Origin: Paractinoplanes pyxinae
Lineage (GTDB): Bacteria > Actinomycetota > Actinomycetes > Mycobacteriales > Micromonosporaceae
Assembly: GCF_026626335.1 (NCBI RefSeq)
Contig: NZ_JAPNTZ010000007.1
Location: 186,001-250,000, forward strand
DNA: 64,000 nucleotides
Direction: 5' to 3'
Shown here: piece by piece, positions 39,128 through 42,080 of the stretch
Layout: every line of letters begins with the position of its first letter
Numbering within the stretch: the first letter of the stretch is position 1
Notes under the pieces: generated by a model
The model's input: the letters and a program-made list of their open reading frames with translations, nothing else
What the model was told of the DNA's origin: nothing
Databases searched by the model: none
Made by a program: the position numbers and the translations under genes

Positions 39128-39703
39128 ATGGCCGTTCACCTCACCCGCATCTACACCCGAGCCGGCGACGCCGGGCAGACCCGCCTGGGCAACAACGAGG
39201 TCGCCGACAAGACCGATCCGCGCATCGTCGCGTACGCCGACGCCGACGAGTGCAACGCCGCGCTGGGAGTGGCGCTCGCCCTCGGTGACCTGCCGCCGGA
39301 CGTCCGGAAGGTGCTGACGGCCATCCAGAACGATCTCTTCGACGTCGGGGCCGACCTGTGCAACCCCGAGACCGAGAACCCGCCCTACCCGCCCCTGCGG
39401 ATCACCGACGAGTACGTGACCCGCCTCGAGGGCTGGTGCGACCAGTTCAACGAGAAGCTGCCCGCTCTCGACAGTTTCGTCCTGCCGGGTGGCACCCCGG
39501 GGGCGGCGCTGTTGCATGTGGCCCGCACGGTGGCCCGCCGGGCCGAGCGCTCGACCTGGACGCTGCTGAGGGCCGACCCCGAGCGGACGAGCGACCTGCC
39601 CGCGAAGTACCTGAACCGCCTGTCCGACCTGCTGTTCATCCTGTCCCGCACGGCCAACCCGGGCGGCGACGTGAAGTGGGTGCCGGGCGGCGGCGCGGCC
39701 TGA
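39128..39703 (+). CDS. Cob(I)alamin adenosyltransferase, PduO type
   Basis: Transfers adenosyl from ATP to cob(I)alamin to make coenzyme B12. It has 191 residues, a five-helix bundle. The N-terminal ATP loop is YTRAGDAGQTRLG, KTDPRIVAYADADECNAALG is the conserved subunit-interface stretch, and PGGTPGAALLHVARTVARRAER the C-terminal signature. It is a natural supplier for IcmA and methylmalonyl-CoA mutase. The VOC gene follows with a TGATG overlap, so the two form an operon. Confidence 0.93.
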   Translation: MAVHLTRIYTRAGDAGQTRLGNNEVADKTDPRIVAYADADECNAALGVALALGDLPPDVRKVLTAIQNDLFDVGADLCNPETENPPYPPLRITDEYVTRLEGWCDQFNEKLPALDSFVLPGGTPGAALLHVARTVARRAERSTWTLLRADPERTSDLPAKYLNRLSDLLFILSRTANPGGDVKWVPGGGAA

Positions 39704-40092
39704 TGCTGCACCACGTCGAGCTGTGGGTGCCGGACCTGGCCGGCGCGGCCGGGCCGTGGGGCTGGCTGCTGGGTGAGCTGGGCTGGAAGCCGTACCAGGA
39801 CTGGCCGGGCGGCCGGTCCTGGCTGTGCGAGGGCGTCTATCTGGTGCTCGAGCAGTCGCCGGCGCTGTCGGGCGACGTGCACGACCGGCTCGCGCCGGGG
39901 CTGAACCACCTGGCCTTCAACGCGGGCAGCCGGGCCGAGGTGGACCGCCTGACCACTGAGTCGGCCGATCACGGCTGGGCCCTGCTCTTCCCCGATCGTC
40001 ACCCCCGCGCCGGCGGTCCTGACTCGTACGCCGCCTATCTCGAGGACGCGTGGGGCTTCGAGGTCGAGCTGCAGAGCGGAAAACCCGAATGA
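39703..40092 (+). CDS. VOC (glyoxalase/bleomycin-resistance fold) family protein
   Basis: A 129-residue single VOC unit pair. LHHVELWVPDLAGAAGPWGW begins the first beta-alpha-beta module, and GLNHLAFNAGSRAEVDRL the second, with the putative metal His. A late Glu (WGFEVELQSG) completes the set, so metal binding is plausible. The ATG overlaps the adenosyltransferase stop by one base. The substrate is unknown; such small members include dioxygenases, epimerases and drug-binding proteins. It is followed by the attenuator region of the PheS-like gene. Confidence 0.85.
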   Translation: MLHHVELWVPDLAGAAGPWGWLLGELGWKPYQDWPGGRSWLCEGVYLVLEQSPALSGDVHDRLAPGLNHLAFNAGSRAEVDRLTTESADHGWALLFPDRHPRAGGPDSYAAYLEDAWGFEVELQSGKPE

Positions 40093-40111
40093 CGCACGTC
40101 GCCCCGGGTGT

Positions 40112-40117
40112 CACCAT
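40112..40117 (+). promoter_or_regulatory. Possible -10 for the leader-peptide transcript
   Basis: CACCAT at 40112-40117 with ATGACG at 40089-40094 (17-base spacing) would place the transcription start on the leader ATG at 40124, giving a leaderless leader peptide. Both hexamers are weak matches. Confidence 0.3.
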
Positions 40118-40123
40118 CGAGGC

Positions 40124-40174
40124 ATGACCGCACGCGCAGCCTCTTTTGCCCGGCCCCTCCCGGCGGCCGGCTGA
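40124..40174 (+). CDS. Leader peptide MTARAASFARPLPAAG
   Basis: A 16-codon frame upstream of the PheS-like gene. Codons 7 and 8 are TCT TTT. TTT is a rare Phe codon in this DNA, where TTC is normal, so this is a plausible control codon. The following bases 40164-40169 (CGGCCG) are the first of three mutually pairing segments. A ribosome waiting near codon 8 would leave that segment free, while one reaching the stop at 40172-40174 would cover it. The amino acid sensed is inferred, not shown; Phe, Arg or Pro codons all sit in the right place. Confidence 0.6.
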   Translation: MTARAASFARPLPAAG

Positions 40175-40191
40175 TCTGCGCTTTCTTGTTC

Positions 40192-40216
40192 ACGGCCGTC
40201 CCATCGGGGCGGCCGT
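40192..40216 (+). terminator. Attenuator hairpin with T-rich tail
   Basis: An 11-bp stem with one G-T pair, 40192-40202 with 40206-40216, and a three-base loop, followed by TCTCGTTTCC. Each arm contains the self-complementary CGGCCG (40193-40198 and 40210-40215). A third CGGCCG inside the leader frame can pair with the first arm instead. This is the layout of transcription attenuation. Confidence 0.75.
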
Positions 40217-40263
40217 TCTCGTTTCCGGCTTCCCCGTTCGCTCTTCAGTCGAAGGAGAAGCTG

Positions 40264-41316
40264 ATGTCTCTCGCCACCGATCTCGCCGTCCGCGACCTCA
40301 CCGACCCGGCTCAGGGCCCGCACGCGATCCAGACGATCGTGCAAGCCGTGCTCGACGCGGCCACCGCCCGCTGGCCGGACGCCGAGCTGGTCGTGCACCG
40401 GGGCGAGCGCATAGTCGACGTGGCCGACAACTACGACCGGCTGGGGTACTCGGCGGAGGCGGCCGCCCGGGACAGCCGCTACACGCGCTACGTCGACGAG
40501 CGGCGGATGCTGCGCTCGCAGACGTCGGCGCTGATTCCGGGAGCGCTGCGGGAACTGACGGCCGGCGAGGCGCTGATCGCCTGCCCGGGCATCGTCTATC
40601 GGCGTGATTCCATCGACCGGCTGCACACCGGCACCCCGCACCAGCTCGACCTCTGGCGCGTCACCCGCGAACCGGCCGAGCTGATCGAGCTGGTGGCGGT
40701 GGCGATGACGGCCGCCCTTCCGGGTACGCCGTGGCGGGTGCATCCGGCCTGTCACACTTACACCACCGACGGGCTCGAGATCGAAGCGTGGTCCGGCGAG
40801 GCCTGGGTGGAGGTCGGCGAGTGCGGGGTGGCGGCCCGGCATCTGTGCGACGGGCTGGCTCTGGGGTTGGGTCTGGACCGGCTGCTCATGCTGCGTAAAG
40901 ACATCGACGACATCCGGCTGCTGCGGTCGGACGATCGCCGGGTGCGCGACCAGATGGCCGACCTGACGCCCTACCGCCCGGTCTCGACGCAACCGGCCGC
41001 CCGGCGCGACCTGTCGGTGGCACTGCCGGCCGGGGTGACCGCCGAAGACCTCGGCGACCAGGTGCGCGAGCTGCTCGGGCCGGATGCGCGCCTGGTCGAG
41101 GAGGTGACGATCGAATCGATCACCTCGCCGGAGGTGCTGCCGGCGGCCTCCCGGGCACGGCTGGGCATCCGCGACGACGAGGTGAATGTGCTGGTCCGCG
41201 TCGTGCTGCGCGACTTGCACCGGGCGCTGCCCCGCCAACGCGTCAACGCCCTGCGCGACCGCCTCTACGAGGGGCTGATGGCCAGGAGCTCGCCGTCGAT
41301 GACGGTCACGGCCTGA
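40264..41316 (+). CDS. srmL: PheS-related ligase with FDX-ACB-like C-terminal domain (SrmL-type)
   Basis: 350 residues resembling a monomeric Phe-tRNA synthetase. The class II core carries motif 2-like YRRDSIDRLHTGTPHQLDLW and motif 3-like GLGLDRLLMLRKDIDDIRLL. The last ~95 residues (RRDLSVALPAGVTAEDLGDQ to the end) match the FDX-ACB anticodon-binding fold. The true pheST pair is not here. From memory, NCBI calls this family PheS-related mystery ligase SrmL. AAGGAG precedes the ATG at 40264. It may ligate an amino acid to a non-tRNA acceptor or charge tRNA under special conditions; the leader attenuator suggests amino-acid or tRNA sensing. Its 3' end overlaps phzF-like by 52 bases in antisense. 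Confidence 0.82.
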   Translation: MSLATDLAVRDLTDPAQGPHAIQTIVQAVLDAATARWPDAELVVHRGERIVDVADNYDRLGYSAEAAARDSRYTRYVDERRMLRSQTSALIPGALRELTAGEALIACPGIVYRRDSIDRLHTGTPHQLDLWRVTREPAELIELVAVAMTAALPGTPWRVHPACHTYTTDGLEIEAWSGEAWVEVGECGVAARHLCDGLALGLGLDRLLMLRKDIDDIRLLRSDDRRVRDQMADLTPYRPVSTQPAARRDLSVALPAGVTAEDLGDQVRELLGPDARLVEEVTIESITSPEVLPAASRARLGIRDDEVNVLVRVVLRDLHRALPRQRVNALRDRLYEGLMARSSPSMTVTA

Positions 41317-42080
41317 CCCGTGAGCAGGGTGCGGTCGCCGCGCAGCGAGACCCGGACCAGGCCGCCGCGGGCCGAGGCCTGGTAGCCGACCATTTCGGTG
41401 CGGCCGCCCAGCTTCTCGGACCAGAACGGGGCCAGCGCGGTGTGGGCGCTGCCGGTCACCGGGTCCTCGCCCACTCCGGCCGCAGCGCCGAAGAAGCGGG
41501 AGACGAAGTCGTAGCCGGCGTCGGGGTCGTCGGCCCGGGCGGTCACGATGACGCCGCGCTGCTCGTAGCCGGCCAGCGTGCGCAGGTCGGGCGTCAGCGC
41601 GCGGACGGCGGCCTCGTCGTACAGCTCCAGCAGCAGGTCGTCGGTGTTCGGGCCGGTGTGGTGCACCGAGACGGGCGTGGCCCCGAGCACGTCGAGCAGT
41701 TCGGGATCCGGGGCTACGGGAGCCAGCGGGGCGGTCGGGAAGTCGAGCGTGTACCAGCCCTTCTCCCCCGCGGTGGCGCTCAGCACGCCGCTACGGGTCG
41801 TGAACCGTACGGTGCCGTCGACGGCCAGCACGTGGGCGGTCGCGAGCGTGGCGTGGCCGCACAGGGCCACCTCGACGGCGGGAGTGAACCAGCGCAACGC
41901 GTAGTCGGCCCCGGCGTCCCGCAGCGGGTGGACGAAGGCCGTCTCGGACAGGTTCACCTCGGCCGCGACCCGGGCCATCCACTCGTCGGCGGGAAACTCG
42001 GGCTGGTCGAGCACCACGACCCCGGCCGGGTTGCCCGCGAAGGGACGGTCGGTGAAGGCGTCGACGATTCGGATGCGCAT
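41265..42080 (-). CDS. PhzF-family isomerase/epimerase
   Basis: 271 residues with a diaminopimelate-epimerase-like double-hotdog fold. AFTDRPFAGNPAGVVVLD is the N-terminal signature. NLSETAF carries the catalytic Glu, ALCGHATLATAHVLA the first half-site loop, and GVGEDPVTGSAHTALAPFW the second. PhzF acts in phenazine biosynthesis, but most members have unknown small-molecule substrates. No other phenazine genes are present, so a phenazine role is not supported. The stop lies inside the 3' end of the PheS-like gene (52-base convergent overlap). Confidence 0.9.
   Translation of the reverse strand: MRIRIVDAFTDRPFAGNPAGVVVLDQPEFPADEWMARVAAEVNLSETAFVHPLRDAGADYALRWFTPAVEVALCGHATLATAHVLAVDGTVRFTTRSGVLSATAGEKGWYTLDFPTAPLAPVAPDPELLDVLGATPVSVHHTGPNTDDLLLELYDEAAVRALTPDLRTLAGYEQRGVIVTARADDPDAGYDFVSRFFGAAAGVGEDPVTGSAHTALAPFWSEKLGGRTEMVGYQASARGGLVRVSLRGDRTLLTGQAVTVIDGELLAISPS

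Follow-up and report, generated by a model that had tools for sequence, protein, structure and literature searches.

What signal governs the expression of a synthetase-like ligase, and what does that signal say about the work of the enzyme? We considered this question for srmL, which encodes a PheS-related ligase in a 64,000-nucleotide stretch of the Paractinoplanes pyxinae genome (contig NZ_JAPNTZ010000007.1, positions 186,001 to 250,000; hereafter the window), where an earlier note had described a leader-peptide attenuator directly upstream of the gene. Our analysis makes it likely, on sequence comparison, that the upstream region is a ribosome-mediated attenuator that senses Phe-tRNA(Phe) and induces SrmL as a phenylalanine (Phe)-free auxiliary tRNA(Phe) ligase. 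The regulatory part of this proposal appears well supported. Across related loci the leader, its control codon and the RNA stems are conserved and the terminator covaries, and the protein is Phe-free and has a predicted fold of the phenylalanyl-tRNA synthetase (PheRS) type; what we infer is that the ribosome stalls, which way the switch works and that SrmL acylates tRNA(Phe) with Phe.

In the proposed mechanism, transcription would probably start at or beside the leader ATG. With ample Phe-tRNA(Phe), the ribosome would reach the leader stop codon and cover segment 2, leaving segments 3 and 4 to form the terminator and srmL off; when it is scarce, the ribosome would stall at the single UUU codon and cover segment 1, segment 2 would pair with segment 3, and srmL would be transcribed. 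SrmL itself would be a monomeric PheRS relative with the architecture of the mitochondrial enzyme, and, being devoid of nearly all Phe of its own, could be synthesised while Phe-tRNA is exhausted. Most simply, it would serve to replenish charged tRNA(Phe), for instance where inhibition or poor activity limits the ordinary PheRS, and the benefit of an extra ligase could lie in inhibition of the main enzyme, in a better affinity or in the use of a surrogate amino acid.

SrmL loci were collected by a genus search of 67 genomes (strong SrmL matches in 21, L001–L021), a family search (200 genomes, 32 above the SrmL cut-off), a class search (394 genomes, 26 above) and a phylum search (396 genomes, 2 above), and a scan of named genomes added 15 loci. 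Once loci with an identical 100-nt upstream stretch were collapsed, 71 remained, comprising 44 from Micromonosporaceae, 19 from the actinomycete family f93, 3 from f91, 2 from f16, and one each from f82, Kitasatospora and a Polyangiaceae metagenome-assembled genome (MAG). Several Jiangella and Phytoactinopolyspora are among the named database matches to SrmL, and f93 is presumably their family. The set retains one match below the cut-off (L077, 292 bits), and the family genomes G081 and G121, above the cut-off, lie outside it; loci holding true PheS alone (L022–L030 and L078–L104) were excluded and serve as controls. The leader and codon counts over the 71 loci are not independent, as the loci are related. 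The Polyangiaceae MAG (L040), labelled as outside Actinobacteria, carries SrmL and a leader with RRRFIGPP, with no terminator by the criteria used; transfer or mis-binning are both possible.

An open reading frame (ORF) with the pattern F..P[PRL] lies no more than 300 nt upstream of srmL in 67 of the 71 loci; of 1420 dinucleotide shuffles, 52 (3.7%) have one. When one short ORF with the conserved Phe was picked per locus under a rule favouring F..P[PRL] (at L010, the second candidate), Phe was the sole invariant residue (71/71); exactly one Phe is found in 66 leaders and two or three in the other five, and it stands at codon 7 or 8 in 59. Its codon is TTT in 58 leaders and TTC in 13 (TTT in 33/44 Micromonosporaceae and 18/19 f93 loci), whereas in long ORFs with a high G+C content at third codon positions TTT accounts for 2.7% of the Phe codons in the window (11/405) and 4.1% in the flanks (52/1258), so that the rarity of the control codon claimed in the earlier note is borne out. 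The Phe codon precedes segment 1, as in ribosome-mediated attenuators, where the codon for the sensed amino acid comes before the alternative pairings; the leader ORF itself is predicted to be translated. A [TC]AnnnT element ends 6–7 nt ahead of the leader start in 65/71 loci (best-fit start, spacings 4–10), and this spacing suggests that the leader transcript is leaderless. Rfam gave no match up to E = 1 among five attenuator loci of the window type, and NCBIfam gave none for seven leader queries of at least 20 residues each, the shorter window leader lying outside that scan.

In the window, the terminator hairpin at 40192–40216 has a stem of 11 pairs and a loop of 3 nt and is the sole terminator-like site within 39900–40400 (shuffle mean 0.2). 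Copies of CGGCCG stand at 40164, 40193 and 40210. An antiterminator formed by 40162–40169 and 40193–40200 (−17.4 kcal/mol) and the terminator formed by 40192–40202 and 40206–40216 (−21.7 kcal/mol) are mutually exclusive, since pairing of segments 2 and 3 precludes that of 3 and 4. Direct reading thus reproduces the 16-codon leader, the TTT at codon 8, the three CGGCCG copies and the 11-pair stem given in the earlier note at the same coordinates, and folding and pairing energies agree with its claim that segment 2 can pair with either segment 1 or segment 3.

These parts recur in relatives. A terminator meeting fixed criteria was found in 18/19 loci of the Actinoplanes group (6/380 shuffles) and in 19/21 loci of a second group of 20 Micromonosporaceae and L129 (4/420 shuffles); by family, 36/44 Micromonosporaceae loci and 3/27 others have an intrinsic terminator. 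In the 19 Actinoplanes-group loci 93.1% of the cells of the terminator stem are paired and 11 cells carry two-sided changes, a count reached by 0/500 shuffles. The antiterminator of this group has 95.2% of its cells paired, and its energy falls under the 5th shuffle percentile in 12/18 loci. The second group uses other complementary segments (CCCCCGG type) in an unchanged order, a swap that amounts to co-variation of whole segments; consensus folding of this group gave weak structure, which we think is due to alignment shifts. The leader frame, control codon and stems that had been noticed in a single sequence are thus all conserved in close relatives, with a covarying terminator. It could be argued that the hairpin merely terminates the upstream gene and that the short ORF arose by chance, as the hairpin lies shortly downstream of an ORF ending at 40092 (VOC-like by eye). 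Leader, codon and position recur despite visibly different upstream sequence, and the shuffle comparisons above for both the ORF pattern and the Actinoplanes-group terminators reject this explanation, to which we give practically no credence.

The product of the gene is equally unusual. The window protein belongs to NCBIfam NF051887, SrmL, 'PheS-related mystery ligase' (439 bits, cut-off 300), and matches PF01409, the class II PheRS-type core (81.5 bits, cut-off 19.8), while it stays below the cut-offs of the curated PheRS models TIGR00468 (69.4 against 237.45 bits) and TIGR00469 (89.3 against 258.35 bits). Over 322 residues the predicted fold of the full-length protein matches that of monomeric PheRS, with the structural alignment extending to residue 343. 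The earlier note was right in calling the ligase PheS-like and overlooked its complete lack of Phe (the ORF as tabulated for the window begins at 40108 and so includes 6 Phe encoded in the leader region; read from 40264 it has none). Across the 71 loci the 25,714 residues of SrmL include 621 Tyr and 321 Trp but just 6 Phe, 3 of which lie near a protein end, and 65 of the proteins are Phe-free. Three proteins are short pieces with short or interrupted frames (L020, 220 aa; L043, 299 aa; L077, 270 aa), possibly decaying copies or assembly errors. By comparison, Phe makes up 558 of the 10,968 residues (5.1%) of the control PheS proteins, each of which has at least 10 (35/36 loci readable), and the window ORFs of at least 200 aa (n = 36) have a mean Phe content of 2.77%, the other 35 all containing Phe. 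From a database of 5.8 billion proteins, 6,907 of 7,998 scored candidates matched the SrmL profile at E <= 1e-60; the best 120 of these 6,907 hold 27 Phe in 45,078 residues, 98 of the 120 being Phe-free, and Phe is their rarest residue (0.06%), followed by Lys (0.59%).

An alignment of 63 of the 71 SrmL (8 short, extended or insert-bearing proteins excluded) with 62 PheS locates the loss. All 12 positions at which at least 85% of PheS carry Phe are non-Phe in the 63 SrmL; in SrmL numbering these are 33, 57, 75, 125, 147, 152, 164, 166, 198, 200, 227 and 231, replaced in the same order mostly by L, Y, R, P, V, L, H, Y, L, L/M, V and M. Other PheS residues are retained, namely R113, H121, Q127 (62/63), E183, A199 and R206; R113 and R206, present in 63/63, are what we take to be the motif 2 and motif 3 arginines of class II enzymes.

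The same kind of leader stands before the ordinary synthetase genes. The genome of the window also holds an ordinary pheS (16 Phe) with a one-Phe leader upstream (L130:1-420), and such F..P leaders precede 38 of 41 readable Micromonosporaceae pheS loci (L025 was unreadable; L169, L171 and L186 have none). They were selected for F..P, with candidates that end in P-A-G-R-G-like sequence mildly preferred and the TTT codon playing no part in the choice; all 38 read F-x-x-P-A, 33 of them F-x-[RQ]-P-A, and the Phe codon is TTT in 38/38. In many of these loci, by eye, a downstream ACCGGCGGGC-like stretch is complementary to a GCCCGCCGGT-like stretch of the leader and is followed by a GC-rich hairpin with no evident U-tract. 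Among class-level pheS loci (27/30 readable), 11 have an F..[PQ] ORF that by eye is unlike the Micromonosporaceae motif, several of them resembling the ends of upstream genes; among phylum-level loci (15/27 readable) there is one match, again unlike it, and a leader of the Micromonosporaceae type is therefore not evident outside the family at these loci. That srmL and pheST both carry one-Phe leaders suggests a Phe-tRNA regulon in Micromonosporaceae. As PheS is Phe-rich despite its similar leader, the loss of Phe is not a general consequence of attenuation, and it fits an SrmL that acts under severe shortage. The suggestion in the earlier note that the regulation of the ligase is a clue to the signal sensed is strengthened by the near absence of Phe from SrmL and by the matching pheST leader.

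A different sensor has to be weighed at this point, because the leader could be an arrest peptide for a drug or metabolite (of the macrolide or proline-stalling type), and Phe would then belong to the arrest motif instead of marking a control codon. Pro stands at +3 from Phe in 69/71 srmL leaders and Arg immediately before Phe in 31/71, and F-x-x-P is present in the pheST leaders too. A peptide motif, however, has no need of the rare TTT that dominates in both sets of leaders, the Pro codon lies inside segment 1, where RNA pairing can explain it, and is absent in L038 and L012, and a drug sensor would not predict a Phe-free product; we consider an arrest peptide highly improbable. Proline stalling as such was rejected on the residue after Pro: of the 71 leaders, 47 have Arg there, 15 have Pro and 9 have some other residue.

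Table 1. Parts of the srmL attenuator and the gene it precedes (positions in the window).
Feature	Positions	Strand	Basis or remark
−10-like element CACCAT	40112..40117	+	ends 6 nt before the leader ATG; points to a leaderless start
Leader ORF MTARAASFARPLPAAG, 16 codons and TGA (ATG 40124–40126, TGA 40172–40174)	40124..40174	+	read directly; counterpart picked at 71/71 loci
Control codon TTT, Phe-8 of the leader	40145..40147	+	Phe in 71/71 leaders
Segment 1, 5' arm of the 1:2 hairpin	40150..40157	+	minimum-free-energy fold of L001; starts 2 nt past the control codon
Segment 2, at the end of the leader ORF	40162..40170	+	alternative partner of segment 1 or segment 3
Segment 3, terminator 5' arm	40192..40202	+	folding, covariation, terminator scan
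Segment 4, terminator 3' arm	40206..40216	+	folding, covariation, terminator scan
T-rich tail of the terminator TCTCGTTTCC	40217..40225	+	terminator scan
Shine-Dalgarno-like AAGGAG of srmL	40252..40257	+	read directly
srmL, PheS-related mystery ligase, 350 aa, zero Phe	40264..41316	+	NF051887 and PF01409 matches, Phe counts

Nearby genes in the window encode a cobalamin adenosyltransferase (39128–39703) and a PhzF-like protein on the opposite strand (41265–42080). At gathering thresholds Rfam reports an unrelated L31-Actinobacteria ribosomal protein leader (RF03158, 62227–62263, minus strand, 37.8 bits).

Several observations weigh against a Phe-tRNA attenuator that induces a Phe ligase. A scan with the consensus sigma-70 promoter found none in 39900–40400. 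The selection rule favoured F..P, which biases the 71/71 count of Phe (the unbiased figure is the 67/71 against 3.7% given above), and the leaders, with one Phe in most of them, lack the run of several control codons that is frequent in attenuators of this class but does not define it. By the fixed criteria a terminator is missing in 8/44 Micromonosporaceae loci (L013, L018, L037, L056, L057, L058, L062 and L066; L056 and L058 have strong hairpins that failed the tail rule) and in 24/27 others, and Paractinoplanes deccanensis (L037:2301-2500) has srmL with a leader frame that runs on and no good terminator. The two-sided terminator changes sit in only 2 pairs, which 152/500 shuffles match; antiterminator covariation in the Actinoplanes group is weak (changed-cell counts reached by 31–33 of 500 shuffles, the score by 13), and in the second group the antiterminator energy is under the 5th shuffle percentile in only 4/19 loci. 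In the protein, the FDX-ACB domain scores 21.6 bits, under the Pfam cut-off of 31.1, and the PheRS pocket is altered from F-P-F to H-P-Y, from HQxE to HQxD and from GGCG to GECG. The paired-Phe pocket, F-P-F in 62/62 PheS, is replaced by H164 and Y166 in 63/63 SrmL. We take this Phe pair to be F258/F260 of Thermus thermophilus PheRS, which line the substrate pocket. Given the altered amino-acid pocket, Phe may not be the substrate of SrmL.

It is for the window and its family, and not for all SrmL, that we claim membership of the attenuator class on these comparisons. In f93 a terminator is found in 1/19 loci, against 18/380 shuffles. A possible 25-pair interaction of the f93 leader with a segment after its stop codon has 96.4% of cells paired and a covariation score reached by 0/500 shuffles, and between that segment and the Shine-Dalgarno region 81.6% of cells are paired, with covariation not above shuffles; as a suggestion, the control codon may drive a translational switch in this family.

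The altered pocket also bears on what SrmL makes. The attenuator could sense Phe-tRNA while the aminoacyl-adenylate of SrmL serves the modification of a small molecule or protein during Phe shortage, with no tRNA charging. H-P-Y, HQxD and GECG are fixed in 63/63 SrmL (62 for the P of H-P-Y and for the Q of HQxD), at positions that presumably contact the substrate in PheRS; the PheS and mitochondrial PheRS models lie far under their cut-offs, and FDX-ACB is under its own in the window protein. By contrast, about 95 of the best 120 of the 6,907 relatives (a count by eye) have a precomputed FDX-ACB (PF03147) match, the predicted full-length fold matches that of monomeric PheRS, and a regulation common to srmL and pheST fits tRNA charging best, so that we regard a ligase without tRNA charging as unlikely, with a real if minor chance of being correct. 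SrmL might instead, once Phe-tRNA is exhausted, load tRNA(Phe) with some other aromatic amino acid, or a similar one, as a surrogate. This would be compatible with Glu-186, which is invariant, and with a pocket fixed as H-P-Y. A199 aligns with what we take to be the Ala that helps PheRS to exclude larger side chains, and its retention speaks somewhat against tyrosine as the surrogate. We consider surrogate charging improbable; if true, it would be an induced, conditional change of the code, in which Phe codons are temporarily read otherwise through the action of a nearly Phe-free enzyme.

Under the preferred reading, that of a Phe-tRNA attenuator inducing an auxiliary tRNA(Phe) ligase, several thousand unstudied SrmL-family proteins gain a testable function, as a ligase made when the delivery of Phe to the ribosome fails. 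An enzyme of 350 residues that has given up almost all of one amino acid would be an extreme case of a protein avoiding the very resource whose shortage induces it. The name SrmL of NCBIfam NF051887 carries neither function nor regulation, and in the literature searched, mostly non-subscription, we recognised nothing on SrmL, a Phe-free synthetase or an actinobacterial Phe leader and found no report of a Phe-tRNA regulon in Micromonosporaceae. The type of switch is already known; neither a synthetase-like target that lacks Phe nor leaders with a single Phe in front of srmL and pheST were met in that literature.

Among known systems, human mitochondrial PheRS (PDB 3cmq, 5mgv) is 27% identical to SrmL in the structural alignment and differs in having F-P-F where the Phe-free SrmL has H-P-Y. 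Vecchione and Sello (2010, cited in PMC4787780) are said to have described an auxiliary tryptophanyl-tRNA synthetase of Streptomyces coelicolor, TrpRS1, that is controlled by an attenuator. The reported TrpRS1 resembles SrmL in being an extra aminoacyl-tRNA synthetase gene with a leader-peptide attenuator and a control codon that matches the synthetase family, and differs in that it concerns tryptophan, a class I enzyme and a known inhibitor, indolmycin, whereas SrmL has a Phe codon, is class II and is Phe-free. The enteric pheST leader has several Phe codons and controls a genuine PheRS; like the srmL leader it places Phe codons before a gene of the Phe-tRNA-ligase type, with several codons versus one. 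The pheST of gamma-proteobacteria is also named in PMC1262725. In Streptomyces lividans, according to PMC8079986, trpS, leuS, thrS and alaS have leader peptides, most with leaderless transcripts, and the eight leaders described there, unlike that of srmL, include no Phe leader. TrpL2, the leader before trpS in PMC8079986, contains just one Trp codon and lacks a U-rich stretch; like the srmL leader, it sets one control codon before a gene of the aminoacyl-tRNA synthetase type.
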